Shown here: positions 2,002 through 19,255 of the stretch, piece after piece
How positions within the stretch are numbered: position 1 is the first letter of the stretch
Layout of the letters: each line of letters starts with the position of its first letter
From: Marinobacter salsuginis
Lineage (GTDB): Bacteria > Pseudomonadota > Gammaproteobacteria > Pseudomonadales > Oleiphilaceae
Length of the DNA: 64,000 nucleotides
NCBI RefSeq assembly: GCF_009617755.1
Contig: NZ_BGZH01000001.1
Coordinates: 2,356,001-2,420,000, forward strand
Reading direction: 5' to 3'
Notes under the pieces: generated by a model
Told to the model about the DNA's origin: nothing
Databases searched by the model: none
The model's input: the letters and a program-made list of their open reading frames with translations, nothing else
Program-made: the position numbers and the translations under genes

Positions 2002-3705
2002 TCAGCTTTCATCGAGAATGCCAGTTTTTTTAAGGCGATAGGCGAGAGCGGGACGGGTCAGCCCCAGAATTCGAGCAGCCCCTGAGACATTCTGATTCGC
2101 CTGTTCCATGGCCTGCCGCATCAGCGTTTCTTCCACTTCCTCCAGGCTGATTCCGCTGTTGATGATATGATCAGACCAGCTTTCCTCCTTGCCGGCAGCC
2201 TGGCCGACGCAGACATTACCGTCTGCATCGATTCGTTCTATGGGCATTGGCTCCGATGGAGGAGGCGAGACGAACAGGGCATCCTGACTGATGGATTCGT
2301 TGTTGTCAGTTAGGATGACACCGCGCTCGATGACATTCTCAAGCTCCCGTATATTGCCCGGCCACTGATAGTTCATGCACAGCGCCAGGGCTTTGTCCGA
2401 TAACCCCAGAGTGCGTTTTTCATACTGGGCGTGGAATTTTTCCAGGAAGTGGCCGACCAGCAAAGGCAAATCTTCAAGTCGTTCCCGCAAAGGTGGGATT
2501 CTCACCGGGAAAACGTTCAGGCGATAAAACAGGTCGGCTCTGAAGCGGCCGTCCTCGACTGCCTGTTCAAGGCTCTCGTTGGTGGCGGCGATCACTCGAA
2601 CGTTGACCTTTCGGGTGCGATTGTCGCCCACTCTTTCAAGTTCACTTTCCTGTAATACTCTGAGCAGGGTGGCCTGGGCTCGGGGAGTGAGCTCCACAAC
2701 CTCGTCCAGAAAGATGGTTCCACCGTTGGCGCGTTCGAAACGCCCTTCTCTCGACTGGTTCGCACCCGTGTAGGCGCCTTTTTCAACGCCGAAAAGTTCC
2801 GCCTCAATCAGATCCGGCGGAATGGCCGCGCAATTCACGGCGATGAAGGGCCCATCAGCCCTTGCGCTTCGCAAATGGACGCTGCGGGCTATTACTTCCT
2901 TGCCGACGCCTGTCTCGCCCAGGAGAAGTACCGACACCTTTCCCTGTGCGGCCTTGTCAATCATCCGGCACACCTTGTTATAGGATGCGGACTGGCCAAT
3001 GCCGTAATACTGGCCTTCTTGCCGCTGAAAGGAGCTTCGCAAGGAGTTTAATTGTGCCTGAAGATCGTAAAGCTCTTCGATGATCGGATCCGCTTTGAAG
3101 TAGCGGGAGAACTCTTTCCCGTCCTTCCATTGCTCAGCAGGTTTACCCTCGATCATGCATTTCTCATCGCCACAGCCCCGGCAGCTGACTTCCCGGAAGA
3201 TGATTTCCCGGCCCATGAACGATGAGGTATAGGCGCAGGCATACCCCAGCAGTACCCAGCAGGCCGGTTCTTTCATAAGACCCAGCTCGGTCTTGCAGAT
3301 TTCCACTTCCCAGGAGTCGATCCATTCTAAGCGTCCGTAAAAATCTCCGGATTCCTGGTCCAGATCAATCTCCAGGGGAATGACTTTTACCATACCCTTC
3401 AGTGAGTGAAGTTGCGGACCGGCCAAAAAAATATCCAGCTCACTGCAATGAGGCCTCAGCTTGCGGGCCAGCTCAGCATCCTTGAGCCCAGAGAGATAGC
3501 CAAGCCTCAGGAAGAATCCCTTGGCTCTCTCAATGCCCATGCTATTAACGATCTCGCGACGGAATGCTGCCAATGAACTGAGATTCATTAACAGCATTCG
3601 CTGTTCGCCAAACCAGATTTTGCCCTCCGTGGATTGAAACTGGATCTGGTCCTTGAGATCCCTGAAGTCTGAATAACTCAGCTGTGGCTTGTAGCTTACA
3701 GCCAT
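2002..3705 (-). CDS. dmpR: Phenol-responsive sigma-54 activator, DmpR/XylR family
   Basis: This 567-residue enhancer-binding protein (DmpR is 563) is expected to sense phenols directly and activate the RpoN promoter of the divergent dmp operon. Residues ~1-210 form the XylR_N/V4R sensor with H100 and a cysteine cluster at C137, C175, C178 and C183, matching the zinc-containing sensor of DmpR. The AAA+ domain has Walker A GETGVGKE (263-270), the sigma-54 loop GAYTGA (310-315; Tyr replaces the usual Phe) and Walker B around 330-335. A Fis-type helix-turn-helix lies near the C-terminus ([17 protein letters not shown]). The start at 3705 is chosen because AAAGGGG precedes it and the length fits; an upstream extension to 3807 has no such support. 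Confidence 0.95.
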
Positions 3706-3779
3706 AGTGTTCACCCCTTTTGTTGTTGTCGGCGGGGACTGCTCTTTTCGGAGAGCCTGTTGGCATTTCGTATAAACAG

Positions 3780-3807
3780 TTAATACCTGATGGATGTCAC
3801 AAATCAA
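3780..3807 (-). promoter_or_regulatory. Possible sigma-70 promoter of dmpR
   Basis: On the minus strand, TTGATT (3807-3802) is followed 16 nt later by TATTAA (3785-3780), each 4/6 to the -35 and -10 consensus. This would give a leader of about 70 nt. A DmpR-like half-palindrome (ATCA-N6-TGAT, 3803-3816) overlaps the -35, which could allow autoregulation. The support is by pattern only. Confidence 0.3.
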
Positions 3808-5387: not shown

Positions 5388-5653
5388 GCCAGCTCGTATT
5401 CATCGCATTCCAGGACAACGACAACGCCCGCTACATGGTGGAAGCCATTCAGGAAGACAACCCTGAAGCGGAGGTTCAGCACCAGCCGGCAATGATCCGG
5501 ATCCAGGCCGAAAAGCGCCTGGTGATCAACCGGGAGACCATGGAAGAAAAGCTGGGCCGCGACTGGGATGTCCAGGAAATGCTTATCGATGTCATCAGTA
5601 TTGGCGGCAACGTCGACGAAGACGATGACCACTTCATCCTTGAGTGGAAATAA
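5384..5653 (+). CDS. dmpM: Phenol hydroxylase effector (coupling) protein
   Basis: An 89-residue, strongly acidic small protein of the MmoB/DmpM family. These cofactor-free proteins bind the oxygenase and tune oxygen activation and product release. The N-terminus MSQLVFIAFQDNDNARYMVE and the C-terminal DVISIGGNVDEDDDHF are family hallmarks. The start overlaps the dmpL stop by 4 nt (ATGA), indicating translational coupling. Confidence 0.95.
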   Translation: MSQLVFIAFQDNDNARYMVEAIQEDNPEAEVQHQPAMIRIQAEKRLVINRETMEEKLGRDWDVQEMLIDVISIGGNVDEDDDHFILEWK

Positions 5654-5667
5654 TCGGGAGACACATC

Positions 5668-7203
5668 ATGGCTGTTAAAAACAAAAAGTTGAACCTGAAA
5701 GACAAGTACCAGTACCTGACTCGGGACATGGCCTGGGAGCCCAGCTACCAGAAGAAAGAGGACATCTTCCCGGACGAGCAGTTCGAGGGTATCAAGATCA
5801 CTGACTGGTCCCAGTGGGAAGACCCGTTCCGTCTGACCATGGATGCCTATTGGAAGTACCAGGCGGAAAAAGAGAAGAAGCTGTACGCAATTTTTGATGC
5901 CTTTGCCCAGAACAACGGCCATCAGAACATTTCCGATGCCCGCTATGTCAACGCCCTGAAACTGTTCCTGACCGGCGTATCACCGCTTGAACATGCGGCG
6001 TTCCAGGGTTATGCCAAAGTAGGCAGACAGTTCAGTGGTGCCGGTGCACGCGTGGCCTGCCAGATGCAGGCCATTGACGAGCTGCGTCATTCCCAGACCC
6101 AGCAGCACGCCATGAGCCACTACAACAAGCACTTCAATGGCCTGCACGATGCTGCCTACATGCACGACCGGGTTTGGTTCCTGTCGGTGCCCAAGTCGTT
6201 CTTTGACGATGCTCGCTCGGCCGGCCCGTTCGAGTTCCTGACCGCTATCTCGTTCTCCTTCGAGTATGTGCTGACCAACCTTCTGTTCGTGCCCTTTATG
6301 TCCGGCGCCGCCTACAACGGCGACATGGCCACGGTGACCTTTGGTTTCTCGGCTCAGTCTGATGAGGCGCGGCACATGACCCTGGGCCTTGAGGTGATCA
6401 AGTTCATCCTGGAGCAGCACGAGGACAACGTGCCCATCGTTCAGCGCTGGATCGACAAGTGGTTCTGGCGCGGGTTCCGCCTGCTCAGCCTGGTCAGCAT
6501 GATGATGGACTACATGCTGCCGAACAAGGTTATGAGCTGGGCCGAGGCCTGGGAAGTCTATTACGAGCAGAATGGCGGTGCCCTGTTCAAGGATCTGGAA
6601 CGCTATGGTATCCGTCCGCCCAAATACCAGGACGTGGCCAACGATGCCAAGCATCACCTGAGCCACCAGCTATGGACCACCTTCTACCAGTACAGCCAGG
6701 CCACCAACTTCCACACCTGGATTCCGGAAAAGGAAGAAATGGACTGGATGTCCGAGAAGTACCCGGAGACTTTCGACAAGTACTACCGTCCCCGCTACGA
6801 GTACCTGGCGAAAGAAGCCGCCGCTGGCCGGCGCTTCTACAACAACACCCTGCCGCAGCTATGCCAGGTGTGTCAGGTACCCACCCTGTTTACCGAGATG
6901 GGTGCGCCCACCAAGCTGAGCCATCGTCAGCTGGTGCATGAAGGCGAGCGCTACCACTTCTGCTCCGAAGCCTGCTGCGACATTTTCAAGGATGAACCGG
7001 AGAAGTACGTCCAGGCCTGGTTGCCGGTGCACCAGATCTACCAGGGCAACTGTGAGGGTGCCGACGTCGAGACAGTGGTGCAGAAGTACTACCACATCAA
7101 TATCGGCGAGGACAATTTCGAGTACGTAGGGTCCCCAGACCACAAGCATTGGCTTTCCATCAAGGGCCAGAAACCGGCTGACCAGAGTAAAGACGCAGCC
7201 TGA
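5668..7203 (+). CDS. dmpN: Phenol hydroxylase oxygenase alpha subunit (diiron)
   Basis: The 511-residue catalytic subunit converts phenol to catechol with O2. The diiron ligands are all visible at family spacing: E108, E138 with H141 (DELRH), E199, and E233 with H236 (DEARH). A cysteine-rich YHS-type C-terminal module (residues ~400-460, LCQVCQVP then FCSEACCDIF) is present as in DmpN. Start 5668 follows GGGAGA at good spacing; the 8 upstream in-frame codons from 5644 overlap dmpM and are excluded. Confidence 0.96.
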   Translation: MAVKNKKLNLKDKYQYLTRDMAWEPSYQKKEDIFPDEQFEGIKITDWSQWEDPFRLTMDAYWKYQAEKEKKLYAIFDAFAQNNGHQNISDARYVNALKLFLTGVSPLEHAAFQGYAKVGRQFSGAGARVACQMQAIDELRHSQTQQHAMSHYNKHFNGLHDAAYMHDRVWFLSVPKSFFDDARSAGPFEFLTAISFSFEYVLTNLLFVPFMSGAAYNGDMATVTFGFSAQSDEARHMTLGLEVIKFILEQHEDNVPIVQRWIDKWFWRGFRLLSLVSMMMDYMLPNKVMSWAEAWEVYYEQNGGALFKDLERYGIRPPKYQDVANDAKHHLSHQLWTTFYQYSQATNFHTWIPEKEEMDWMSEKYPETFDKYYRPRYEYLAKEAAAGRRFYNNTLPQLCQVCQVPTLFTEMGAPTKLSHRQLVHEGERYHFCSEACCDIFKDEPEKYVQAWLPVHQIYQGNCEGADVETVVQKYYHINIGEDNFEYVGSPDHKHWLSIKGQKPADQSKDAA

Positions 7204-7217
7204 CAGTGACCCGGGAA

Positions 7218-7245
7218 TCGCCCGGCTGCCTGGGGCGTCGGGCGA
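7218..7245 (+). other. Hairpin in the dmpN-dmpO gap
   Basis: TCGCCCG (7218-7224) pairs with CGGGCGA (7239-7245) around a 14-nt loop. At 72 nt this is the longest gap within dmpLMNOPQBCDEFGHI. No U-tract follows, so it is not a terminator. It could stabilise the upstream message coding for the catalytic subunits or reduce downstream expression. Confidence 0.4.
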
Positions 7246-7275
7246 ACCACGCACAAAAACAACAAGGTGACCACC

Positions 7276-7635
7276 ATGAGTGTTAACGCGTTATACGACT
7301 ACAAGTTCGAACCGAAAGACAAGGTTGAGAACTTCAATGGCATGCAACTGCTGTATGTCTACTGGCCCAATCACTTGCTGTTCTGCGCGCCGTTTGCGTT
7401 GCTGGTGCAGCCGGATATGACGTTCGGCGATCTCGTCGAGACCGTTATCAAACCGGCAGCTGCCGCCCATCCGGATGCCGCCAAAGCCGACTTCCTGAAT
7501 GCCGAGTGGCTGCTGAACGATGAACCGTTCACGCCGCGGGCTGACGCCAGCCTGAAAGACAACGGCATTGATCACAAAAGCATGCTCACGGTCACCACGC
7601 CGGGGCTGAACGGCATTGCCGACGTCGGTTACTGA
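7276..7635 (+). CDS. dmpO: Phenol hydroxylase gamma subunit
   Basis: 119 residues, the same length as DmpO, the gamma subunit of the oxygenase hexamer. The sequence MSVNALYDYKFEPKDKVENF with an internal YVYWPNHLLFCAPF block is typical. The ATG at 7276 is preceded by AAGGTG. A GTG at 7267 in the same frame would add three residues and overlap that Shine-Dalgarno. Confidence 0.95.
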   Translation: MSVNALYDYKFEPKDKVENFNGMQLLYVYWPNHLLFCAPFALLVQPDMTFGDLVETVIKPAAAAHPDAAKADFLNAEWLLNDEPFTPRADASLKDNGIDHKSMLTVTTPGLNGIADVGY

Positions 7636-7650
7636 GCGGGGAGAAGTGCC

Positions 7651-8712
7651 ATGAGTCATACCGTGACTATCGAGCCTATCGGCGAGCAGATTGAAGTGGA
7701 GGACGGCCAGACCATCCTCCAGGCCGCGCTCCGCCAGGGTGTCTGGCTGCCCTTCGCCTGCGGTCATGGCACCTGCGCAACGTGCAAGGTCCAGGTGTTG
7801 GAAGGCGACGTGGAGATTGGCGACGCCTCGCCCTTTGCCCTGATGGACATTGAGCGGGACGAGGGCAAGGTGCTTGCCTGCTGTGCCACCGTTGAAAGTG
7901 ACGTGACCATCGAAGCAGATATCGATGTCGATCCGGATTTCGAGGGATACCCGGTGGAGGACTACACCGCTACCGTGACAGACATCGTCGACCTGTCGCC
8001 CACCATCAAGGGTGTTCATCTGAAGCTGGACCGCCCCATGACGTTCCAGGCCGGCCAGTACATCAATATCGAATTGCCGGATGTGGACGGCCCCCGGGCT
8101 TTCTCACTGGCCAACCCGCCCAGCAAGTCCGACGAAGTGGAACTGCACGTTCGCCTGGTGCCTGGCGGTGCTGCCACCACCTACATCCATGAACAGCTCA
8201 AGGTCGGCGAAGAGCTGAACCTGTCCGGCCCCTACGGGCAATTTTTTGTCCGCAGCTCCCAGCCGGGCGATCTGATCTTCATTGCCGGCGGCTCCGGCCT
8301 TTCCAGCCCGCAGTCCATGATTCTGGACCTGCTGGAGCAGAACGACGAGCGCAAGATCACCCTGTTCCAGGGTGCCCGGAACCAGGCCGAGCTCTACAAC
8401 CGCGAGTTGTTCGAGGCACTGGCCAGGGATAACGAACATTTCACCTACGTGCCCGCATTGAGTGACGCCGACGACGATGCTGATTGGCAGGGCTTCCGCG
8501 GCTACGTCCATGAAGCGGCCAAAGAGCACTACGACGGGCGGTTTGCCGGCAATAAGGCCTACATGTGTGGACCGCCTCCGATGATCGATTCCGCGATTAC
8601 AGCATTGATGCAGGGACGGTTGTTCGAGCGGGACATCTTTATGGAGAAGTTCCTGACGGCTGCAGATGGTGCGGAAGACAACCAGCGTTCAGCGCTGTTC
8701 AAGAAGATCTGA
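7651..8712 (+). CDS. dmpP: Phenol hydroxylase reductase (2Fe-2S, FAD, NADH)
   Basis: This 353-residue protein carries electrons from NADH to the DmpLNO oxygenase. Residues ~1-90 are a plant-type ferredoxin domain with CGHGTCATC and a downstream Cys for the 2Fe-2S cluster. An FAD domain follows (RAFSLAN motif), then a NAD-binding domain (AGGSGLSSPQSMILDLL, and CGPPPMI near the C-terminus). The length equals DmpP of the CF600 system. Confidence 0.96.
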   Translation: MSHTVTIEPIGEQIEVEDGQTILQAALRQGVWLPFACGHGTCATCKVQVLEGDVEIGDASPFALMDIERDEGKVLACCATVESDVTIEADIDVDPDFEGYPVEDYTATVTDIVDLSPTIKGVHLKLDRPMTFQAGQYINIELPDVDGPRAFSLANPPSKSDEVELHVRLVPGGAATTYIHEQLKVGEELNLSGPYGQFFVRSSQPGDLIFIAGGSGLSSPQSMILDLLEQNDERKITLFQGARNQAELYNRELFEALARDNEHFTYVPALSDADDDADWQGFRGYVHEAAKEHYDGRFAGNKAYMCGPPPMIDSAITALMQGRLFERDIFMEKFLTAADGAEDNQRSALFKKI

Positions 8713-8724
8713 TGCGGAGGAAGC

Positions 8725-9048
8725 ATGGCGGTATTCCATGTGATCAACCGCACGACCGGCGACCGGTTCCGGTGTGACGAGGACCAGAGTGTCCTCAAGG
8801 CCATGGAGCTGGTTGGCAAGAAGTGTGTCCCGGTGGGTTGCCGGGGCGGCGGCTGCGGGTTTTGCAAGATCCGTGTTGTTGAAGGTGAGTTCCGGTGCGG
8901 AAAGATGAGCAAGACACATTGCCCCCCGGAGGCTCTTGAAAAAGGGGAAGTCCTGGCCTGCCGGATCTACCCGAGAACCGATTTGATGATCGAGTGTATG
9001 CCGCAACCTGCAGCGCCACTCGCCGAACAGACAAAAACAAAACCGTAG
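8725..9048 (+). CDS. dmpQ: XylT/DmpQ-like [2Fe-2S] ferredoxin for dioxygenase reactivation
   Basis: A 107-residue plant-type ferredoxin with the cluster pattern CRGGGCGFC and a later Cys (LACRIYP). XylT/DmpQ proteins reduce the oxidised, inactivated iron of catechol 2,3-dioxygenase, which matters with 4-methyl-substituted substrates. Its place directly before dmpB supports that role. It has an extra C-terminal tail rich in Pro, Ala, Thr and Lys. Confidence 0.92.
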
Positions 9049-9059
9049 AGGTAATCGTC

Positions 9060-9983
9060 ATGAAAAAAGGTGTTATGCGTCCCGGCCACGTTCAGATCCG
9101 CGTTCTGGACATTGAAGAAGCGGTAAAACATTACACAGACCTCATGGGCCTTATTGAGACAGACCGAGACGAACAGGGTCGGGTCTATCTGAAGGCCTGG
9201 ACCGAAGTGGACAAGTTCTCGGTGGTACTGATTGAAGCCGACGAGCCCGGTTGTGATTTCATGGGCTTCAAGGTTGTGGATGAGGCAGCGCTTGTTCAGC
9301 TGGAAAAAGACCTGGTGGCTTACGGGCTGGATGTAGAGCAGATTCCCGAAGGCGAGCTGAAAGACTGCGGCCGCCGGATCCGCTTTACCGTGCCTTCGGG
9401 CCACGCGTTCGAGCTATACGCCGACAAACTCTACACCGGCAAATGGGGTGTTACCGAGGTTAATCCCGAGGCCTGGCCCCGTGGCCTTTCCGGCATGAAG
9501 GCGGTGCGATTTGACCATTGCCTGTTCTACGGGCCGGAACTGGCGGCTGTGTATGACATCTTCGTGAACGTGCTCGGGTTCCATCTGGCCGAGCAGGTGC
9601 TGGACCCGGAAGGCACCCGGATTGCCCAGTTCCTGACCGTGTCCATGAAGGAGCACGACATTGCTTTCATTCACCATGAAGAGAAAGGCAAGTTCCACCA
9701 CGCGTCCTTCTTCCTCGAAACCTGGGAAGACGTCCTGCGGGCCGCAGACCTGATTTCCATGACCGATACCTCTATTGATATCGGGCCCACACGGCACGGC
9801 CTGACCCACGGCAAAACCATCTATTTCTTCGATCCGTCGGGCAATCGCAACGAAGTCTTCTGTGGCGGTGACTACACCTATCCGGACCACAAACCGGTGA
9901 CCTGGCAGGCGGAGCAGCTCGGCAAGGCCATCTTCTATCACGATCGCCAGTTGAACGAGCGGTTCCTGACGGTTCTGACCTGA
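9060..9983 (+). CDS. dmpB: Catechol 2,3-dioxygenase
   Basis: 307 residues, the length of XylE/DmpB. It cleaves catechol next to the hydroxyls to 2-hydroxymuconic semialdehyde. The iron ligands fall at the XylE positions H153, H214 and E265, and second-shell residues H199, H246 and Y255 are also in place. The two vicinal-oxygen-chelate halves are complete, so the enzyme should be active. The start at 9060 follows AGAGGTAATC; the upstream frame from 8994 lies in dmpQ. Confidence 0.97.
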
Positions 9984-10011
9984 CACCATCCAGCAACAGG
10001 ATTTAGCAGCA

Positions 10012-11472
10012 ATGAAAGAGATCAAACACTACATCAACGGTCAGTACGTGGGCTCCGCCAGCGGCAAGCTGTTCGACAACGTGAACCCCGCCAACGGCAA
10101 GGTCATTGCCAAGGTGCACGAGGGTGGTCGAGACGAAGTCGACGCCGCTGTGAGGGCAGCCCGGGCGGCCTTGAAAGGCCCCTGGGGCAAGATGACTCTG
10201 GACGAGCGCACCCGCATTCTGCATCGGGTGGCCGATGGCATCAACGAACGCTTTGAGGAATTCCTGGAAGCCGAGTGCCTGGATACCGGTAAGCCGAAAT
10301 CCCTGGCTAGCCACATCGACATCCCCCGGGGTGCGGCCAACTTCAAGGTGTTCGCGGACATGATCAAGAACGTGCCCACGGAATCCTTCGAAATGGCCAC
10401 GCCGGACGGCGCGGGTGCCCTGAACTACGCCGTTCGCCGTCCCAAGGGTGTGATCGGTGTGATCAGCCCCTGGAACCTGCCGCTGCTGCTGATGACCTGG
10501 AAGGTCGGGCCGGCCCTGGCCTGTGGCAATACCGTCGTCGTCAAACCGTCGGAAGAGACACCGACCACCACCGCCCTTCTGGGCGAGGTGATGAAGGAAG
10601 CCGGTGTGCCGGATGGCGTCTACAACGTTGTTCATGGCTTCGGTGGTGATTCCGCTGGCGCCTATCTGACCGAGCACCCGCAGGTTGACGGGTTCACCTT
10701 CACCGGTGAGACCGGCACGGGTGAAGTCATTATGAAGGCGGCTGCCAAAGGTATCCGGGATATTTCCCTGGAGCTGGGCGGCAAGAATGCCGGCCTGGTA
10801 TTCGCCGATTGCGACATGGACAAGGCCATCGAGGGCACCATGCGCTCTGCTTTTGCCAACTGTGGCCAAGTCTGCCTGGGTACCGAGCGAGTTTACGTTG
10901 AGCGGTCGGTTTTCGACGAGTTTGTCGGTCGCCTCAAGGAAGCCGCGGAAGGTCTGAAGATTGGCCCGCCTGATGATGCAGAAGCCAACCTGGGGCCGCT
11001 TGTCAGCCTCGAACACCGCGAAAAGGTGCTCTCTTACTACCAGAAAGCCGTCGATGACGGAGCAACCGTTGTGACCGGTGGTGGTGTTCCTGAGATGCCT
11101 TCCGAGCTGGCGGGCGGAGCCTGGGTCGAGCCCACCATCTGGACCGGCCTGCCGGACGATTCGGCGGTCGTTACGGACGAGATCTTTGGACCCTGCTGCC
11201 ATATCCGCCCGTTCGATACCGAAGAAGAGGCAATCGAGCTGGCCAACAGTCTCCCCTACGGCCTGGCATCAGCAATCTGGAGCGAAAACATCACCCGCGC
11301 CCATCGCGTCGCGGGCCAGATTGAAGCCGGCATTATCTGGGTAAACAGCTGGTTCCTGAGAGACCTGCGGACACCGTTCGGTGGCAGTAAGCAGTCAGGG
11401 GTCGGTCGTGAAGGTGGTGTGCACTCCCTCGAGTTCTACACCGAAATGAAAAACATCTGCGTCAAATTGTGA
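10012..11472 (+). CDS. dmpC: 2-hydroxymuconic semialdehyde dehydrogenase
   Basis: A 486-residue NAD-dependent aldehyde dehydrogenase. Motifs include the cofactor loop GVIGVISPWNLPLLL, the general base in DISLELGGKN, and the catalytic Cys in FANCGQVCLGTERV. It oxidises the ring-fission aldehyde to 4-oxalocrotonate (the 4-oxalocrotonate branch). It lies 28 nt downstream of dmpB. Confidence 0.95.
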   Translation: MKEIKHYINGQYVGSASGKLFDNVNPANGKVIAKVHEGGRDEVDAAVRAARAALKGPWGKMTLDERTRILHRVADGINERFEEFLEAECLDTGKPKSLASHIDIPRGAANFKVFADMIKNVPTESFEMATPDGAGALNYAVRRPKGVIGVISPWNLPLLLMTWKVGPALACGNTVVVKPSEETPTTTALLGEVMKEAGVPDGVYNVVHGFGGDSAGAYLTEHPQVDGFTFTGETGTGEVIMKAAAKGIRDISLELGGKNAGLVFADCDMDKAIEGTMRSAFANCGQVCLGTERVYVERSVFDEFVGRLKEAAEGLKIGPPDDAEANLGPLVSLEHREKVLSYYQKAVDDGATVVTGGGVPEMPSELAGGAWVEPTIWTGLPDDSAVVTDEIFGPCCHIRPFDTEEEAIELANSLPYGLASAIWSENITRAHRVAGQIEAGIIWVNSWFLRDLRTPFGGSKQSGVGREGGVHSLEFYTEMKNICVKL

Positions 11473-11479
11473 GGGCGTC

Positions 11480-12340
11480 ATGAATGCACCTGTAGACAGC
11501 CCTGAAATCGGGCGTGAAATTGTTGCCGCAGGCTACCGCACCAACGTGCACGACCATGGCGAAGGCGGTTTCCCCGTGATGATGATTCATGGCTCCGGCC
11601 CCGGTGTGACGGCCTGGGCAAACTGGCGCCTGGTGATTCCGGAACTGGCCAAACACCGTCGCGTTGTGGCGCCGGATATGCTGGGCTTCGGCTACAGCGA
11701 GCGCCCGGAAGACCAGATCTACAACCGGGAGCGCTGGGTCAAGCACGCCCTGGGCGTGATGGATGAGCTGGGCCTGGAACAGGTCGACCTAGTGGGGAAT
11801 TCCTTCGGGGGAGGTTTGGCCCTGGCGCTCGCCATTGAGCATCCAGAACGGGTACGCCGCCTGGTGCTGATGGGCTCAGCAGGGGTCAGCTTCCCGATTA
11901 CCAAAGGCCTGGACGAGGTGTGGGGGTACGAACCTTCGCTTGAGACCATGCGCCGTTTGATGGACGTGTTTGCCTTCAACAAGGGCCTGCTGACCAGCGA
12001 GCTGGCGGAGATGCGCTATCAGGCCAGCATCCGGCCCGGTTTCCAGGAGTCGTTTTCGGCCATGTTCCCGGCTCCTCGTCAACGTTGGGTCGATAACCTG
12101 GCTAGTAACGAAGACGACATCCGGGCGCTTCCCCATGAAACCCTGATCCTCCATGGCCGGGAAGATGAAGTCATTCCTCTCGACGCCTCTTATCGACTGG
12201 CTGAACTGATCGACCGCGCCCAGCTGCATGTATTCGGTCGCTGTGGCCATTGGACCCAGATTGAGCATGCCGGCCGGTTTGCCCGGTTGGTCAATGATTT
12301 CCTGAACGAGGCCGATCAGGCCGCTGCCGGAGGTAACTAA
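11480..12340 (+). CDS. dmpD: 2-hydroxymuconic semialdehyde hydrolase
   Basis: A 286-residue alpha/beta hydrolase that cleaves ring-fission products to 2-hydroxypenta-2,4-dienoate plus a carboxylic acid (formate from catechol). The nucleophile elbow is GNSFGG, the acid lies in HGREDEVIP, and the catalytic His in GRCGHWTQIEH. The N-terminal HGSGPGVTAW oxyanion region is typical. This is the hydrolytic branch, needed for ketone products from methylcatechols. Confidence 0.95.
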   Translation: MNAPVDSPEIGREIVAAGYRTNVHDHGEGGFPVMMIHGSGPGVTAWANWRLVIPELAKHRRVVAPDMLGFGYSERPEDQIYNRERWVKHALGVMDELGLEQVDLVGNSFGGGLALALAIEHPERVRRLVLMGSAGVSFPITKGLDEVWGYEPSLETMRRLMDVFAFNKGLLTSELAEMRYQASIRPGFQESFSAMFPAPRQRWVDNLASNEDDIRALPHETLILHGREDEVIPLDASYRLAELIDRAQLHVFGRCGHWTQIEHAGRFARLVNDFLNEADQAAAGGN

Positions 12341-13125
12341 TGGAACAGACGAAAATTCACGCCTTTGGCGACGAGCTCTACCAGGCAATGATGAAAAGGG
12401 AAGCGGTCAGCCCGCTGACCAGCCGTGGTGAGGATATCACCATTGATGATGCCTACCACATTTCCCTGCGCATGCTGGAACGTCGTCTGGCGGATGGCGC
12501 CTCGATTATCGGCAAGAAAATTGGCGTTACCAGCAAAGCCGTACAGAACATGCTCAACGTCCATCAGCCGGATTTTGGCTATCTCACCGACGACATGGTG
12601 TTCAACAGCGGTGAAGTCATGCCCATCAGCGACCGGCTGATCGCGCCGCGCGCAGAGGGCGAAATTGCCTTCATCCTGAAAAAGGATCTGACCGGTCCGG
12701 GCGTGACCAACGCCGACGTTCTGGCGGCTACGGAATGCGTGATGCCCTGCTTCGAAATTGTCGATTCCCGCATCCAGGACTGGAAGATCGCCATCCAGGA
12801 CACCATTGCCGACAACGCTTCCTGCGGCCTGTTTGTGCTTGGCGACCAGGCGGTATCGCCTCGCAAGGTGGATCTGGTGACCTGCGGCATGGTCGTCGAG
12901 AAGAACGGCAGTGTGATCAGTGCCGGCGCCGGGGCAGCGGCACTGGGTTCGCCGGTGAATTGTGTTACCTGGCTGGCGAACACGCTGGGTGAGTTCGGTA
13001 TTTCCCTTAAGGCCGGCGAAGTCATTCTGTCTGGCTCGCTGGTACCCCTTGAGCCGGTCAAGGCCGGTGATTACATGCGGGTCGACATCGGCGGCATCGG
13101 TAGCGCGTCTGTGCGCTTCGCATGA
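12340..13125 (+). CDS. dmpE: 2-hydroxypenta-2,4-dienoate (2-oxopent-4-enoate) hydratase
   Basis: 261 residues of the hydratase/decarboxylase family. It adds water to the dienoate to give 4-hydroxy-2-oxovalerate and needs a divalent metal. Family features include [13 protein letters not shown], the acidic metal patch EGEIAF, and [19 protein letters not shown]. The start codon overlaps the dmpD stop by one base (TAATG). It is a paralogue of DmpH, encoded three genes downstream. Confidence 0.95.
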
Positions 13126-13151
13126 CCGAAAAGAACAATGAGGAAAAGGCT

Positions 13152-14087
13152 ATGAGCAAGAAAATCAAGGCAGCGATCATCGGCTCGGGCAACATCGGCA
13201 CCGATCTGATGATCAAGATCCTGCGCAATGGCAAGCACATTGAAATGGGCGCCATGGTCGGTATCGATCCGGAATCGGACGGTCTGGCCCGGGCTGCCCG
13301 CATGGGCGTGGCCACCACCCACGAAGGCGTCGACGGACTGGTAAAGATGCCGGAATTCGCCGACATCGATATCGTATTCGATGCCACCTCCGCCAAGGCC
13401 CATATGCACAACGAAGTGTTCCTGCGCGGCCACAAAGAGAACATCAAGATCATTGATATGACCCCGGCAGCGATCGGTCCCTACTGTGTGCCGGTGGTGA
13501 ACCTTGAGCAGCAGCTCCAGGAAGGCAACGTCAACATGGTCACCTGTGGCGGCCAGGCCACCATTCCGATGGTGGCCGCGGTATCACGAGTCGCCAAGGC
13601 CCACTACGCGGAGATTGTCGCGTCGATTTCCTCGAAGTCCGCCGGCCCTGGCACTCGCGCCAACATCGATGAGTTTACCGAAACCACCTCCCGGGCTATC
13701 GAAGTGGTGGGTGGTGCCCAGAAGGGCAAGGCCATCATCATCCTGAATCCGGCCGAGCCGCCCCTGCTGATGCGGGACACCGTATACGTGCTCTCGGATG
13801 CGGCCGACAAGGCCCAGGTGGAAGCTTCCGTGGAAGAGATGGTCAAGGCCGTGAACAGCTACGTGCCGGGCTACCGCCTGAAGCAGAAAGTGCAGTTCGA
13901 CGACATCCCCGAAGACCAGCCCATGAATGTCCCGGGCCTGGGCCGCTTCAGCGGCCTGAAGACCTCCATCTTCCTGGAAGTGGAGGGCGCCGCCCACTAC
14001 CTGCCGGCCTACGCCGGTAACCTGGACATCATGACCTCCGCCGCTCTCGGTACCGCCGAGCGCATCGCCGAATCGCTGGTCAACTGA
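13152..14087 (+). CDS. dmpF: Acetaldehyde dehydrogenase (acylating)
   Basis: 311 residues (DmpF 312). It converts the toxic acetaldehyde channelled from DmpG to acetyl-CoA using NAD and CoA. It shows the Rossmann motif [12 protein letters not shown], the catalytic Cys in [12 protein letters not shown], and [19 protein letters not shown]. The ATG at 13152 is preferred because AGGAAAAGGCT precedes it and it matches the family N-terminus. An ATG at 13122 that overlaps the dmpE stop by 4 nt is in frame and may help coupling. Confidence 0.95.
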
Positions 14088-14100
14088 GGAGGGTATTCCC

Positions 14101-15138
14101 ATGACATTCAATCCCGGCAAAAAACTCTACATCTCCGACGTGACCCTGCGAGACGGCAGCCACGCCATTCGTCATCAGTACTCCATCAAGAACGTGCAGG
14201 ATATTGCCCGTGCGCTGGATAAGGCCAAGGTGGACTCCATCGAAGTGGCCCACGGCGACGGACTGCAGGGCTCCAGCTTCAACTACGGCTTTGGTGCCCA
14301 CACCGACCTGGAGTGGATCGAGGCGGTGGCCGAAGTGGTTACCCATTCGAAGATTGCCACCCTGCTGCTGCCCGGCATCGGCACCGTCCATGATCTGGAC
14401 AACGCCTACAACGCCGGCGCCCGGATTGTGCGCGTGGCTACCCACTGCACCGAGGCGGATGTGTCCAAGCAGCACATCGAACACGCCCGGAAGCTGGGCA
14501 TGGATACCGTCGGCTTCCTGATGATGAGCCACATGCAGACCCCGCAGGGTCTGGCTGAGCAGGCCAAGCTGATGGAAGACTACGGCGCCACTTGCCTGTA
14601 CGTGGTCGATTCCGGCGGCGCCATGAACATGAACGACATCCGCGACCGGTTCCGGGCTCTAAAAGACGTGCTGAAACCCGAAACCCAGACCGGCATTCAC
14701 GCCCACCACAACCTCGCCCTGGGTGTAGCCAACTCCATCGTGGCGGTGGAAGAGGGCTGTGACCGGGTGGATGCCTCCCTTTCCGGTATGGGCGCCGGCG
14801 CTGGCAACGCGCCGCTGGAAGTCTGCATCGCCGCCTTCGACAAGATGGGCTGGGAGCACGGCACCGACGTGTACGCCCTGATGGACGCCGCCGACGACAT
14901 CGTGCGTCCGTTGCAGGACCGCCCGGTTCGTGTGGACCGTGAAACCCTGGCGCTGGGCTATGCCGGTGTGTACTCAAGCTTCCTGCGCCATTCCGAAGTG
15001 GCAGCGCAGAAGTACGGCCTGAAGACCGTGGATATTCTGGTGGAGCTGGGCAAACGCCGCATGGTGGGTGGCCAGGAAGACATGATTGTGGATGTGGCGC
15101 TGGATCTGCTGGCGGCACAGAAGGAGCAGAACGCATGA
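14101..15138 (+). CDS. dmpG: 4-hydroxy-2-oxovalerate aldolase
   Basis: A 345-residue TIM-barrel aldolase of the HMG-CoA lyase-like family. It splits 4-hydroxy-2-oxovalerate to pyruvate and acetaldehyde and forms a channelling complex with DmpF. It carries [13 protein letters not shown], metal-binding [12 protein letters not shown] and the C-terminal DmpG communication domain. GGAGGG precedes the ATG. Confidence 0.96.
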
Positions 15139-15929
15139 GCAAGACATTGAGCCGTGAGCAGGTTCTGGCCCTGGCGGAACACGTGGAAAACGCCGAATTG
15201 CAGGCCCATGACATCACCAAGGTCACCAACGACTTTCCGGACATGACCTTCGAAGATGCCTACGACGTGCAGTGGGAGATCCGCCGTCGCAAGGAAGCCC
15301 GTGGCAACAAAGTCGTTGGCATGAAAATGGGCCTTACCTCCTGGGCCAAGATGGCCCAGATGGGAGTGGAGACGCCGATCTACGGATTCCTGGCGGATTA
15401 CTTCAGCGTGCCCGACGGTGGAGTGGTGAACACCAAAGAACTGATCCACCCGAAGATCGAGGCCGAGATCGCCTTTGTCACCAAGGAGCCGCTGAAGGGC
15501 CCTGGCTGCCACATTGGCCAGGTTCTGGCCGCCACCGATTTCGTGATCCCCGCGGTGGAAGTGATCGATTCGCGCTACGAAAACTTCAAGTTTGATCTGG
15601 TGAGTGTGGTGGCAGACAACGCCTCCTCGACCCGCTTTATTACCGGTGGCCAGATGGCTGATGTCGCTGATGTGGATCTGAAAACCCTGGGCGTGGTGGT
15701 CGAGAAGAATGGCGAAGTGGTAGACGTTGGGGCCGGTGCCGCGGTTCTGGGCCATCCGGCTTCCAGTGTCGCCATGCTGGCCAATTTGCTGGCAGAGCGC
15801 GGTGAACACATCCCGGCTGGCACCTTCATCATGACCGGCGGTATTACCGCAGCCATCACGGTTGAGCCCGGTGACAACATCACGGTCCGATACCAGGGCC
15901 TGGGTACGGTATCCGCACGATTCGAATAA
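15135..15929 (+). CDS. dmpH: 4-oxalocrotonate decarboxylase
   Basis: 264 residues of the same fold as DmpE. It removes CO2 from the keto form of 4-oxalocrotonate and gives 2-hydroxypenta-2,4-dienoate. Motifs are [23 protein letters not shown] and [20 protein letters not shown]. The start overlaps dmpG by 4 nt (ATGA). In related systems it complexes with the hydratase. Confidence 0.95.
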
Positions 15930-15938
15930 GGAGGTTTT

Positions 15939-16130
15939 ATGCCTGTCGCCCAGATCAACATCCTGGAAGGCCGGTCTGATGAGCAAAAGGAAGCGCTCAT
16001 CAGAGAGGTCACCGATGCGCTTTGCCGGTCGCTAGGGGCGCCTGTAGAGAGTGTCCGGATCATCATCAATGAAATGCCGAAGCAGCATTTCGGTATCGGT
16101 GGTCAATCCGCGAAGAAGCTGGGGCGCTGA
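15939..16130 (+). CDS. dmpI: 4-oxalocrotonate tautomerase
   Basis: A 63-residue tautomerase subunit. After Met removal, Pro1 is the catalytic base (MPVAQINILEGR), and the conserved Arg is present in EGRSDEQK. It interconverts enol and keto 4-oxalocrotonate for DmpH. A strong AAGGAGG precedes the start. It is the last gene of the classical dmp set; the operon appears to continue. Confidence 0.95.
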   Translation: MPVAQINILEGRSDEQKEALIREVTDALCRSLGAPVESVRIIINEMPKQHFGIGGQSAKKLGR

Positions 16131-16167
16131 GTCCCAGCTTCTGGACAGGCCCGTTTTGGAGGAAATC

Positions 16168-16842
16168 GTGGACAAGCTGCCGGTATTATTTGTCTCATGT
16201 GATGCACGAAGCCTAGAGGCTCAGCGACAAGCTGGTTCCGGACCAGCGAGGATGATCTGGGGGCAAAGTGTCAGGAGTGTCTTGCTGTTAAGCACGGACA
16301 CAAGTCTCCAGGCGCCGGAGGTCACCCACCTGAAAGGGGATCATGAGCGTTCGGAGCGTGTCTTTTCTCTGCTCAGTTCCCGGGGCTTTGCTCCGGGTTT
16401 TCAGGATGAAACGTGTGAGGGTAGAGAGAATTTTCTTCGGGCGTTGCTTTCCGAAGAACCGGCGGACCTCTGTGAGCTCCGACTTAATACCGGGATGAGT
16501 GAAGGAGAGTACCGGCTTGTCGGGCAATGTCTGGAAACCATTCGGGAGCAGGGTGTCCTCGTGATCTGTCTGGATGACAAGCGCGAAAGCCAGGTATCGC
16601 TGCATGACCGGCACCTGCGTGAGATGATCAACGGCTGGGTTCAGGACCAGCAGTGGGGTGCCGCGATCTCGGTCAAGGGCGGCCTGTCCGGTAACAGGCA
16701 TAACCGTAAACTGGAAGATCCAACCGTGTGCCTCCTCAACGCCGCGTTTACGCTTGGCGGATGTAAATTCCCTCAGCGGATGTTCAGCAGCGGTATGAAT
16801 AATGCTGGCCAGATGCTGTCCGGATTTGGCTGGATGCGGTAA
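16168..16842 (+). CDS. LigB/DODA-like (class III extradiol dioxygenase) homologue lacking metal ligands
   Basis: A 224-residue protein starting at GTG 16168, behind a strong GGAGG and 37 nt after dmpI. I do not recognise a named gene. By eye its order of blocks fits the LigB/DODA extradiol dioxygenase fold: LPVLFVS (4-10), SVLLLSTD (37-44), LCELRLN then IREQGVLVICL (101-135), EDPTVCLLNAAFTLGG (183-198), and a C-terminal SSGMNNAGQMLSGFG. Where active DODA proteins have histidines (SHG, SAHW, HGxW, HN, HPTPEH) this protein has SCD, STDT, CEG, DK and EDPTVC. It therefore cannot bind Fe or Zn in the usual way. It could be a structural or regulatory subunit, as the metal-free alpha subunit of 2-aminophenol 1,6-dioxygenase is. 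The homology is inferred from memory. Confidence 0.6.
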   Translation: MDKLPVLFVSCDARSLEAQRQAGSGPARMIWGQSVRSVLLLSTDTSLQAPEVTHLKGDHERSERVFSLLSSRGFAPGFQDETCEGRENFLRALLSEEPADLCELRLNTGMSEGEYRLVGQCLETIREQGVLVICLDDKRESQVSLHDRHLREMINGWVQDQQWGAAISVKGGLSGNRHNRKLEDPTVCLLNAAFTLGGCKFPQRMFSSGMNNAGQMLSGFGWMR

Positions 16843-16847
16843 TCCCA

Positions 16848-18245
16848 ATGGCCGGGAAACAGTTGCTGTCGATGCCATTGCGCGATCTTGCTGATGGGCT
16901 CCGATCCCGGGACATGACAGCGGAGTCTCTGGTTGAAGCCTCGATAGAAGCCAGCAAGGACTGTGATAACCGAGCCTATATCAGCTGGCGCCCCGAGCCG
17001 GCATTGGAACTTGCCCGCGCCGCTGATCAAGTCAGGGCTGCCGGTGGTTCCACCGGGCCTTTGATGGGTATACCGGTATCGGTAAAGGACATGTTCGGGG
17101 TGTCGGGTTTTCCCACCTACGCCGGTTGTGCGAGAGCCTTGCCGAAAAGCTGGGAGGCTGAAGGGCCTCTGGTTCGAGCCTTGCAATCCCAACTTGCTCC
17201 GGTGGTGGGTAAAACCCACTGCGTGGAGTTCGCTTTCGGGGGGCTGGGAACAAACGCCCATTGGCCAACCCCCCAAAACCCCTGGTGCAAGAATGAGCAT
17301 CGGGTGCCTGGCGGGTCGAGTTCAGGTGCCGGAGTGTCTTTGATCAATGGAACCGCGGCGCTGGCTCTGGGCACTGATACCGCCGGCTCTGTGCGTGTTC
17401 CTGCAGCAATGACGGGTGTGGCCGGCCTCAAGACCACAGGCGGGCGCTGGTCCACCCGCGGAATTGTTCCGCTGTCGAGCACCCTGGATACACCCGGTTT
17501 GCTGGCCCGTCGTGTTGAGGATCTGGCCTTTGCGTTCGAGGCGCTTGACCCGATGTTAGCTCGCAGAGGCGCCGGGATACCTGCCAGCCCGGACCTGTCC
17601 CATTTGACCCTGGGGGTTCCGGATGGTTTTTTTTGGGAGAATTGCAGTCCCGGCATTGCGGAAACTGTCGAAGCATCCCTTAAACAGCTTGAAGCTGCCG
17701 GCGCCCGGCTGGTGAAGTTTGAGTTGTCCGGTCTGGCAACGGTTCATTCAATGTTCCTCAAGGGCGGCGTGGCAGCACCGGAACTGGCGGCTTTAATCAG
17801 GGAAGAGCTACCGGATTACAGATCGTCGCTTGATCCCGATGTGGCGGCCAGGCTTCACAAAGCCGAGGGATTACCCGCGTGGGAGTACATTCAACGCCGT
17901 ACCCTGATTGATCGTTTGTCTGCTCAGGCGGCCGAAGAACTATCAACAGTGGATGCTCTTCTGACACCGACGGTTACGCTTACGCCGCCAACCGTGAGCA
18001 GTCTGGCGGACCCTGATGCCTATGTAGCGGCCAATATGCAGGTTCTGCGCAACACAGCCGTGGCGAATTATCTGGGCCTGTGTGGGCTGAGTTTGCCGGT
18101 CGGTTTCGATTCGATGGGTTTGCCGGTAGGGCTTCAATTGTTGATGGGGCCCTGGCGGGAAGAGCGGCTGCTGGCAGTCGGTCAGGCCGTTGAGCGCTGC
18201 CTCGGCACAGGTCCTGATATAATGGGCCTGGCGCCTGCAGACTAA
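16848..18245 (+). CDS. Amidase-signature family hydrolase
   Basis: 465 residues of the amidase-signature (GatA-like) family. The Ser-cisSer-Lys triad is visible: K80 in GIPVSVKDMFG, the cis-Ser within GGSSSGAG (155-162), and the nucleophile S181 in DTAGSVR. It follows the LigB-like gene by 5 nt and continues the dmp transcription unit. The substrate is unknown. The context suggests an amide or ester derivative of an aromatic or ring-fission compound (inference). It is not a GatA: gatB and gatC are absent nearby. Confidence 0.85.
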   Translation: MAGKQLLSMPLRDLADGLRSRDMTAESLVEASIEASKDCDNRAYISWRPEPALELARAADQVRAAGGSTGPLMGIPVSVKDMFGVSGFPTYAGCARALPKSWEAEGPLVRALQSQLAPVVGKTHCVEFAFGGLGTNAHWPTPQNPWCKNEHRVPGGSSSGAGVSLINGTAALALGTDTAGSVRVPAAMTGVAGLKTTGGRWSTRGIVPLSSTLDTPGLLARRVEDLAFAFEALDPMLARRGAGIPASPDLSHLTLGVPDGFFWENCSPGIAETVEASLKQLEAAGARLVKFELSGLATVHSMFLKGGVAAPELAALIREELPDYRSSLDPDVAARLHKAEGLPAWEYIQRRTLIDRLSAQAAEELSTVDALLTPTVTLTPPTVSSLADPDAYVAANMQVLRNTAVANYLGLCGLSLPVGFDSMGLPVGLQLLMGPWREERLLAVGQAVERCLGTGPDIMGLAPAD

Positions 18246-18307: not shown

Positions 18308-19255
18308 TTGGCAGGTCTGAAGATTTTAATGATGGGTGCCGGTGGCATTGGTGGATATTACGCGGCAAGACTCGCCCAGGCGGGACACGAGCTGGTCCTG
18401 ACCGCGCGTGGTGATCATCTCAAGGCGTTGAAAACCGGTGGCCTGACTGTGGATTATGAAGGCGAGATTCTGCATCAGGCACTGCCGGCCTTTTCCCACA
18501 CAGAGCTGATGCAGAAGCATGAACCCGATGACTTTGATCTGATCGTCATCGCCCTGAAGTCCACGGCGACAGCGCCGGTCATGGATGAGATTTCCGATTG
18601 GCTGGAGAACGCGTCTGTTCCGATACTGTCGCTCCAGAACGGGGTCGACAACGAGCCGGTGATTGCCGGGGTGGTTGGTGAGGATCGGGTACTGGGTGGG
18701 CTTGCGGTGCGCATTGGCGGCCACATTACCGAACCCGGGCATGTGTTCGCCGAGGGCGTTGCCCAGGTTGTGATGGGTGCCTGGCCCAGGCAGCGACCTG
18801 ACGATCCCCGCGTTTCCCTGCTCAGACGGTTGGAAGCATTGTTCAACGCGGCCGGCATTCCAACCACCGTCTCTGAAAACATCCGTTACGAACTCTGGCG
18901 CAAGCTGGTGATCAACAACGGTGTGAATCCGCTGTCCGCCCTGACCGGTCTTGATACCCGGAGCCTCACACACCACCCAGAATTCCGGAAGATTGTCCAT
19001 GGAATGATGGCGGAAACAGTGGCTGCATCGGAGGCCGACGACGTCAACCTCGGGCCGGAGGATCTGGCCGAGATGTTCGACCTGATCAGCAACTTCAACG
19101 CCATCAAGACGTCCATGCTGGTCGACAAGGAAAAAGGGCGGCCCCTCGAACTGGACAGTATCGCCGGTGCCGTCCTGAGACGCTGCGAGACCCTGGGCAT
19201 TGAGGCGCCATACACCGGGACGGTGAACGCCCTGCTGACCCATTCGCAGAATTAG
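18308..19255 (+). CDS. 2-dehydropantoate 2-reductase family protein (PanE/ApbA-like)
   Basis: A 315-residue NADP-dependent reductase with N-terminal Rossmann GAGGIGGYYAARL, the family KS motif in LIVIALKS, the LQNGVDN block, and C-terminal KLVINNGVNPLSAL with the conserved lysine. The start is a TTG at 18308 behind GAGG. Paralogues of PanE often reduce other 2-oxo acids. Its place 62 nt behind the amidase, after a pathway rich in 2-oxo acids, makes a catabolic substrate possible, but true PanE activity cannot be excluded. Confidence 0.8.
   Translation: MAGLKILMMGAGGIGGYYAARLAQAGHELVLTARGDHLKALKTGGLTVDYEGEILHQALPAFSHTELMQKHEPDDFDLIVIALKSTATAPVMDEISDWLENASVPILSLQNGVDNEPVIAGVVGEDRVLGGLAVRIGGHITEPGHVFAEGVAQVVMGAWPRQRPDDPRVSLLRRLEALFNAAGIPTTVSENIRYELWRKLVINNGVNPLSALTGLDTRSLTHHPEFRKIVHGMMAETVAASEADDVNLGPEDLAEMFDLISNFNAIKTSMLVDKEKGRPLELDSIAGAVLRRCETLGIEAPYTGTVNALLTHSQN

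Follow-up and report, generated by a model that had tools for sequence, protein, structure and literature searches.

A cysteine-bearing relative of class III extradiol dioxygenases in the phenol meta-cleavage operon of Marinobacter, probably a helper and not a ring-cleaving enzyme

What is a ring-cleavage dioxygenase relative doing in a phenol operon if the histidines that would hold its metal are gone? The question is raised by a 64,000-nucleotide stretch of the Marinobacter salsuginis genome (contig NZ_BGZH01000001.1, positions 2,356,001 to 2,420,000 of the forward strand; hereafter the window) that carries a dmp operon for phenol hydroxylation and meta-cleavage, and within it the following gene:

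16168 to 16842, plus strand: class III extradiol dioxygenase-like pseudoenzyme gene, an open frame of 224 amino acids with a GTG start
16158 to 16162, plus strand: Shine-Dalgarno sequence GGAGG, 5 nucleotides before the GTG start, read from the sequence

An earlier note on this DNA was right about the coordinates, the frame, the GTG start and the strong ribosome site. The product looks like a pseudoenzyme of class III dioxygenase fold. Because the dioxygenase fold is kept while the metal-binding histidines are gone, with conserved cysteines near the site instead, the protein is probably a helper and not a ring-cleaving enzyme. On balance, we favour the view that it descends from a class III extradiol dioxygenase of the 4,5-DOPA dioxygenase (DODA) type, is no longer an oxygenase, and now serves as an accessory of the dmp operon for phenol/catechol meta-cleavage, both in Marinobacter and in a few marine gammaproteobacteria besides.

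The relationship to known proteins was revealed by profiles and folds, single-sequence searches having given nothing useful: the protein has no Pfam match up to an E-value of 10 and none in NCBIfam or PADLOC, and a PDB search with the query sequence alone found no meaningful match. When the family profile was aligned with a DODA-type profile by hhalign, the score was 75.9 (probability 97%), far above the maximum of 25.5 in 100 column-shuffled profiles and the 14.4 of a reversed control, which argues for homology beyond chance. A profile search of the PDB gave 8in2 as its best match (E-value 0.009), and Foldseek returned 28 PDB matches at E-values of at most 0.001, comprising named class III extradiol dioxygenases, the uncharacterised proteins YgiD (2pw6) and TK2203 (5hee), and MEMO1. 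The LigB/DODA fold is present over the full length of the pseudoenzyme, and the resemblance that the earlier note had drawn by eye is thereby borne out. With the 4,5-DOPA dioxygenase/YgiD group (PF02900) the protein shares the whole fold and the order of secondary structures, including the N-terminal PVLFVS(H/C) strand, a GVL(V/I)I strand and a PT-helix-G block near the C-terminus. Unlike that group it has lost the metal-ligand histidines, lacks in the alignment about 23 residues from the HDFRGFP loop region of DODA, is shorter (224 against about 257-276 amino acids), does not reach the Pfam threshold for LigB (PF02900) and is locked in the dmp operon.

The metal site itself has been dismantled. 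In the numbering of L001, H7, H42 and H217 are what we take to be the metal ligands of DODA, and histidine occupies each of these positions in all 43 DODA-type rows. In the family, a set of 60 distinct sequences of which two lack the N-terminus, it occurs in none at the first two ligand columns or anywhere in positions 179-200; more broadly, positions 5-11, 42-45 and 179-200 are free of histidine throughout the set, and there is no conserved glutamate at the ligand columns. The residues quoted in the earlier note, SCD at 10-12, STDT at 42-45 and EDPTVC at 183-188, are present, and its claim that the metal histidines have been lost withstood this wider comparison, in which homologues that keep them did not appear. 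What it overlooked, the main structural clue, is that two of the three ligand positions have a near-invariant cysteine on them or next to them. The codons concerned are as follows:

16198 to 16200, plus strand: codon of C11, opposite the first metal histidine of DODA (SHG to SC); cysteine in 57 of 58 sequences
16297 to 16299, plus strand: codon of D44, opposite the second metal histidine (SAHW); variable in the family, never histidine
16567 to 16569, plus strand: codon of C134, which falls where the strand bearing the GSGS loop in DODA ends (G157 of L001); cysteine in 58 of 60
16729 to 16731, plus strand: codon of C188, at or at most two residues from the third metal histidine (PTxEH to PTVC); cysteine in 60 of 60

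A further cysteine, C121, is kept in 54 of the 60 sequences, and the share of cysteine among all residues is 2.3% in the family as against 0.7% in the DODA rows. Altogether, 28 positions are retained in at least 97% of the 60 sequences.

How firmly the cysteines can be set opposite the old ligands differs between the two ends of the protein. The N-terminal register is unambiguous: over 54 family rows and 34 DODA rows the mean BLOSUM score is 3.2 at offset 0 and negative at the eight other offsets tried. At the C-terminus, where three of the 60 family rows and four of the 43 DODA rows were left out of the comparison because their motif patterns did not fit, ungapped scoring over 12 residues prefers offset 0 (0.24 and 0.19, the next being 0.09 and 0.03), whereas a span of 35 residues scores highest at offset +2 (0.09 and -0.18, compared with -0.21 and -0.54). 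As a profile comparison confined to the C-terminus is not significant, the placement of C188 opposite the third ligand leans on the ungapped helix score. The exact column that faces the third histidine is therefore uncertain by two residues.

Could the protein still be active as a class III dioxygenase, its metal site being merely unusual? The fold and the ancestry of the pocket would allow it, and H146 lies near the old catalytic histidine, opposite H163 of L001 (H107 and H163 are presumably second-sphere histidines; positions 76-92 hold no conserved one). Given ligand columns without histidine or conserved glutamate, and the missing loop residues, we regard the idea as hardly credible. Since the metal ligands were tested and found missing, the protein is not to be filed as a class III dioxygenase. 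Nor does it repeat MEMO1 (3bcz, 7kq8, 7l5c, 7m8h), a eukaryotic protein whose structural similarity to the pseudoenzyme is lower than that of DODA. The metal site of MEMO1 consists of two histidines and one cysteine, whereas the pseudoenzyme keeps no histidine ligand and has a cysteine at the first position.

The family is narrowly distributed. A database search yielded 34 homologues, all of them lacking a precomputed Pfam domain, and a listing for 31 members names five families, none of them PF02900. Matches were found in 28 of 120 Marinobacter genomes, that in G090 being a fragment only, and 29 loci came from scanning GTDB species genomes, with Haliea salexigens, Alteromonas oceanisediminis, Zhongshania sp. 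and Spongiibacter thalassae among the carriers outside Marinobacter. The set of 60 sequences was put together from these sources, and by identity to the query it falls into two groups, at about 45-94% and 30-39%. Among 163 genomes from 16 genera of the taxonomic family, the gene was found in Marinobacter only. In wider samples, with at most seven candidates scored per genome, matches occur in 3 of 398 genomes of the phylum and 7 of 369 of the class; each sample counts the window's own genome as one of these, and the rest are short (positions 54-164) and sit in open frames of 273-340 amino acids, the size of DODA. The novelty of the family is judged only against Pfam, NCBIfam, the PDB and the annotations of the records.

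Where the gene does occur, its setting is nearly constant. In the window it is surrounded by the following:

5644 to 15929, plus strand: dmpN to dmpH, the phenol hydroxylase and meta-cleavage operon in its usual order (open reading frames, conserved order); most gene names here are putative, given by homology
15939 to 16130, plus strand: dmpI, 2-hydroxymuconate (4-oxalocrotonate) tautomerase, the constant upstream neighbour (Pfam Tautomerase)
16848 to 18245, plus strand: amidase, the next gene downstream (PF01425)
18308 to 19255, plus strand: PanE/ApbA-like ketopantoate reductase (panE), a frequent downstream neighbour, after the amidase (Pfam)

The last three genes share their strand with the pseudoenzyme gene, which begins 37 nucleotides after dmpI and ends 5 nucleotides before the amidase, the place on the dmp strand that the earlier note had given it. 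It had also asked whether homologues follow dmpI. They do in 28 of 30 regions around matches (the L062 copy among these being a fragment visible with the profile only) and in 27 of the 29 loci of the GTDB scan, about 1.8 kb separating the two genes in one of the 27; the exceptions in both sets, which share genomes and are not independent, are one contig edge and one remnant. A full amidase follows the gene in the window and in only two of the 30 regions (L036, L037), so the constant unit is dmpI plus the pseudoenzyme gene. On the Alteromonas macleodii plasmid pAltEZ55 the gene, labelled hypothetical, is the last of the operon, with neither amidase nor panE annotated beyond it. The PanE/ApbA-like reductase, in the window and as homologues elsewhere, is frequently last in these operons, including those of genomes without the pseudoenzyme. 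On the minus strand at 2002-3807, divergent from and before the operon, a gene resembles by eye a sigma-54 activator of the DmpR type that has a V4R domain.

The linkage does not run both ways. A dmpN of at least 85% identity is present in 36 of the 120 Marinobacter genomes, and 26 of the 36 carry the pseudoenzyme gene; for two more carriers the assembly is incomplete, and what their loci retain is dmpG (partial in G090), dmpH and dmpI. The remaining 10 of the 36 lack it, and the idea that the gene is present wherever dmp is was rejected on this count. In nine of these ten, the slot after dmpI holds an outer-membrane protein of the Phenol_MetA_deg (PF13557) type, an assignment for which two proteins were scanned against Pfam, the others matching these by tblastn:

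L072, 10558 to 11463, and L074, 10558 to 11433: PF13557-type protein after dmpI; likewise in L068, L069, L071, L073 and L075 to L077

No such protein was found in any of the 31 stretches with the pseudoenzyme gene, the window included, and relatives of it occur elsewhere in carrier genomes (55% in G004, 28% in G115). The two genes seem to alternate at the slot after dmpI. A second type of phenol meta operon (L078, L079, L082, L083), with a DmpN about 66% identical and the order dmpH-dmpI-dmpF-dmpG-dmpB-dmpQ, shows no copy of the pseudoenzyme gene in those stretches; two Marinobacter genomes hold only this type and have no pseudoenzyme gene. In L056 the interval between dmpH and dmpI (8936-10161, minus strand) contains, by eye, a DsbA/hydroxychromene-carboxylate isomerase-like gene (197 amino acids) and a glutathione transferase-like gene (211 amino acids), and gaps similar in size to this pair lie between dmpH and dmpI in L043 and L050. 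Broken copies of the pseudoenzyme gene were seen in extra or decaying dmp operons (L060, L061, L062, L084 and L138, from G036, G098, G024 and G147), and in L060 and L062 the neighbouring dmp genes are split as well.

Is the gene, then, a functionless passenger that decays as the operon carries it along? Such a gene might leave remnants of the kind found here, namely profile pieces and stops (G036, G098, G147), a fragment (G090), a copy that ends after 40 residues (G024) and a Marinobacter salarius plasmid copy that matches in two pieces, and it might be missing from some dmpN genomes. Against this, the pairwise ratio of non-synonymous to synonymous substitution rates (dN/dS) is 0.08-0.20, which indicates purifying selection and agrees with the intact, selected frame claimed earlier. 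The ratio was computable for seven of nine genome pairs, synonymous divergence (dS) being saturated in two and reaching 2.2 in one of the seven used. Set beside the near-invariant positions and the occurrence of the gene with the operon in other genera, and considering that the broken G036 copies lie in operons whose dmp genes are split too, these values largely refute functionless decay, which we hold to be very improbable.

The gene is under purifying selection, yet it evolves faster than the enzymes around it. Its dN/dS compares with 0.06-0.14 for panE and 0.004-0.055 for dmpG and dmpH together, a range that leaves out one pair without any dmpH replacement, and its mean pairwise distance over 19 loci is 0.51, while eight dmp genes lie at 0.06-0.20 and panE at 0.27. 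Correlation of distances is highest with panE (Pearson 0.75, Spearman 0.41), followed by dmpE (0.61, 0.53), and is indistinguishable from the effect of linkage and shared history.

These figures bear directly on the main rival to a thiol site, in which the protein would be a structural subunit or scaffold that binds a meta-pathway enzyme (DmpI, DmpH-DmpE, DmpG-DmpF or DmpB), with the cysteines serving structure through a disulfide or packing. The constant position directly after dmpI and invariant or nearly invariant arginines and tryptophans such as R126, R151, W157, W163, R204 and W222 are in keeping with it, as are Foldseek matches to chains of 2-aminophenol 1,6-dioxygenase (PDB entries 3vsg, 8ihg and 7txy among them; best E-value 1e-6). 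The alpha subunit of that enzyme is metal-free and binds its catalytic subunit; like the pseudoenzyme, it combines the class III fold with the lack of a functional metal site. The pseudoenzyme differs in that its nearest structures are DODAs, that it has a conserved cysteine at the old site and that the window encodes no class III partner; the genome's two PF02900 genes both lie outside it, in agreement with the earlier note's statement that no catalytic partner subunit is encoded here. DmpB is a class I extradiol dioxygenase (Glyoxalase superfamily, Pfam) of unrelated fold. Moreover, the pseudoenzyme evolves several-fold faster than its supposed partners, and the best distance correlations could be obtained from linkage alone. 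A scaffold is, on this analysis, possible but doubtful.

A new cysteine-dependent enzyme, its fold re-tooled to carry out a different pathway reaction through E103, Y115, R126, R151 and C188, would account for the near-invariant polar residues beside the cysteines, for the number of positions so strictly kept, and for purifying selection comparable to that on the PanE-like enzyme. No evidence on their positions places these five residues in one pocket, operon-bearing genomes do without the gene, and we know of no missing step in the meta pathway; this explanation appears unlikely.

The reading that we prefer starts from the near-invariant cysteines at or near the old metal site, which suggest a thiol site. 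The fold is retained and the histidine iron site dismantled. Conserved cysteines (C11, C188 and perhaps C134) probably line the former metal space, which would make the old pocket a cytoplasmic thiol site. Computation establishes the fold, the homology, the ligand loss, the conservation of the cysteines, purifying selection and the link to the operon; the positions of the side chains, their function as thiols and any partners are what we infer. Such a site might hold a soft or reduced metal ion, or it might react reversibly with electrophilic intermediates such as o-quinones and 2-hydroxymuconic semialdehyde. Either way, the protein would protect or tune pathway enzymes, the first candidate being DmpB, an oxygen-sensitive Fe(II) enzyme. 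The most specific form of the proposal, to which we give only tentative credence, is that histidine-to-cysteine exchange at two ligand positions, together with a third cysteine, converted the iron site into a thiolate site. Such a site would bind a cluster or a soft metal, or else capture quinones and the aldehydes from ring fission, and would give the phenol operon a component devoted to maintenance or sensing.

Several observations weigh against a thiol site and a dedicated accessory role. C11 is glycine in one of 58 sequences and C134 is phenylalanine in two of 60; in hhalign and in the 35-residue comparison, C188 falls two residues past the third ligand histidine; and H146, not itself a ligand position, is kept in 46 of 60 sequences and paired by hhalign with the conserved THN histidine of DODA. 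The ten gene-less dmpN genomes mean that the operon can do without the gene, and fast divergence is no less compatible with a partner under loose constraint than with a specific one. A role for the cysteines in thiol or metal chemistry would, in any case, rest on alignment. The earlier observation is thus confirmed and its interpretation, a protein kept for a non-catalytic role, is partly supported: homology, ligand loss, a selected frame and the place after dmpI all stand, while the cysteines had escaped it.

Within the textbook pathway of the dmp meta-cleavage operon, a conserved, selected protein that Pfam and NCBIfam both miss is a testable gap. The protein is also a bacterial example of an oxygenase fold in which conserved cysteines were gained and the iron site was lost, and it can serve to study how metalloenzymes turn into pseudoenzymes or into new metal-binding or redox proteins. 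If the thiolate site is real, this would be a dedicated part in a phenol operon whose parts list was thought to be complete.
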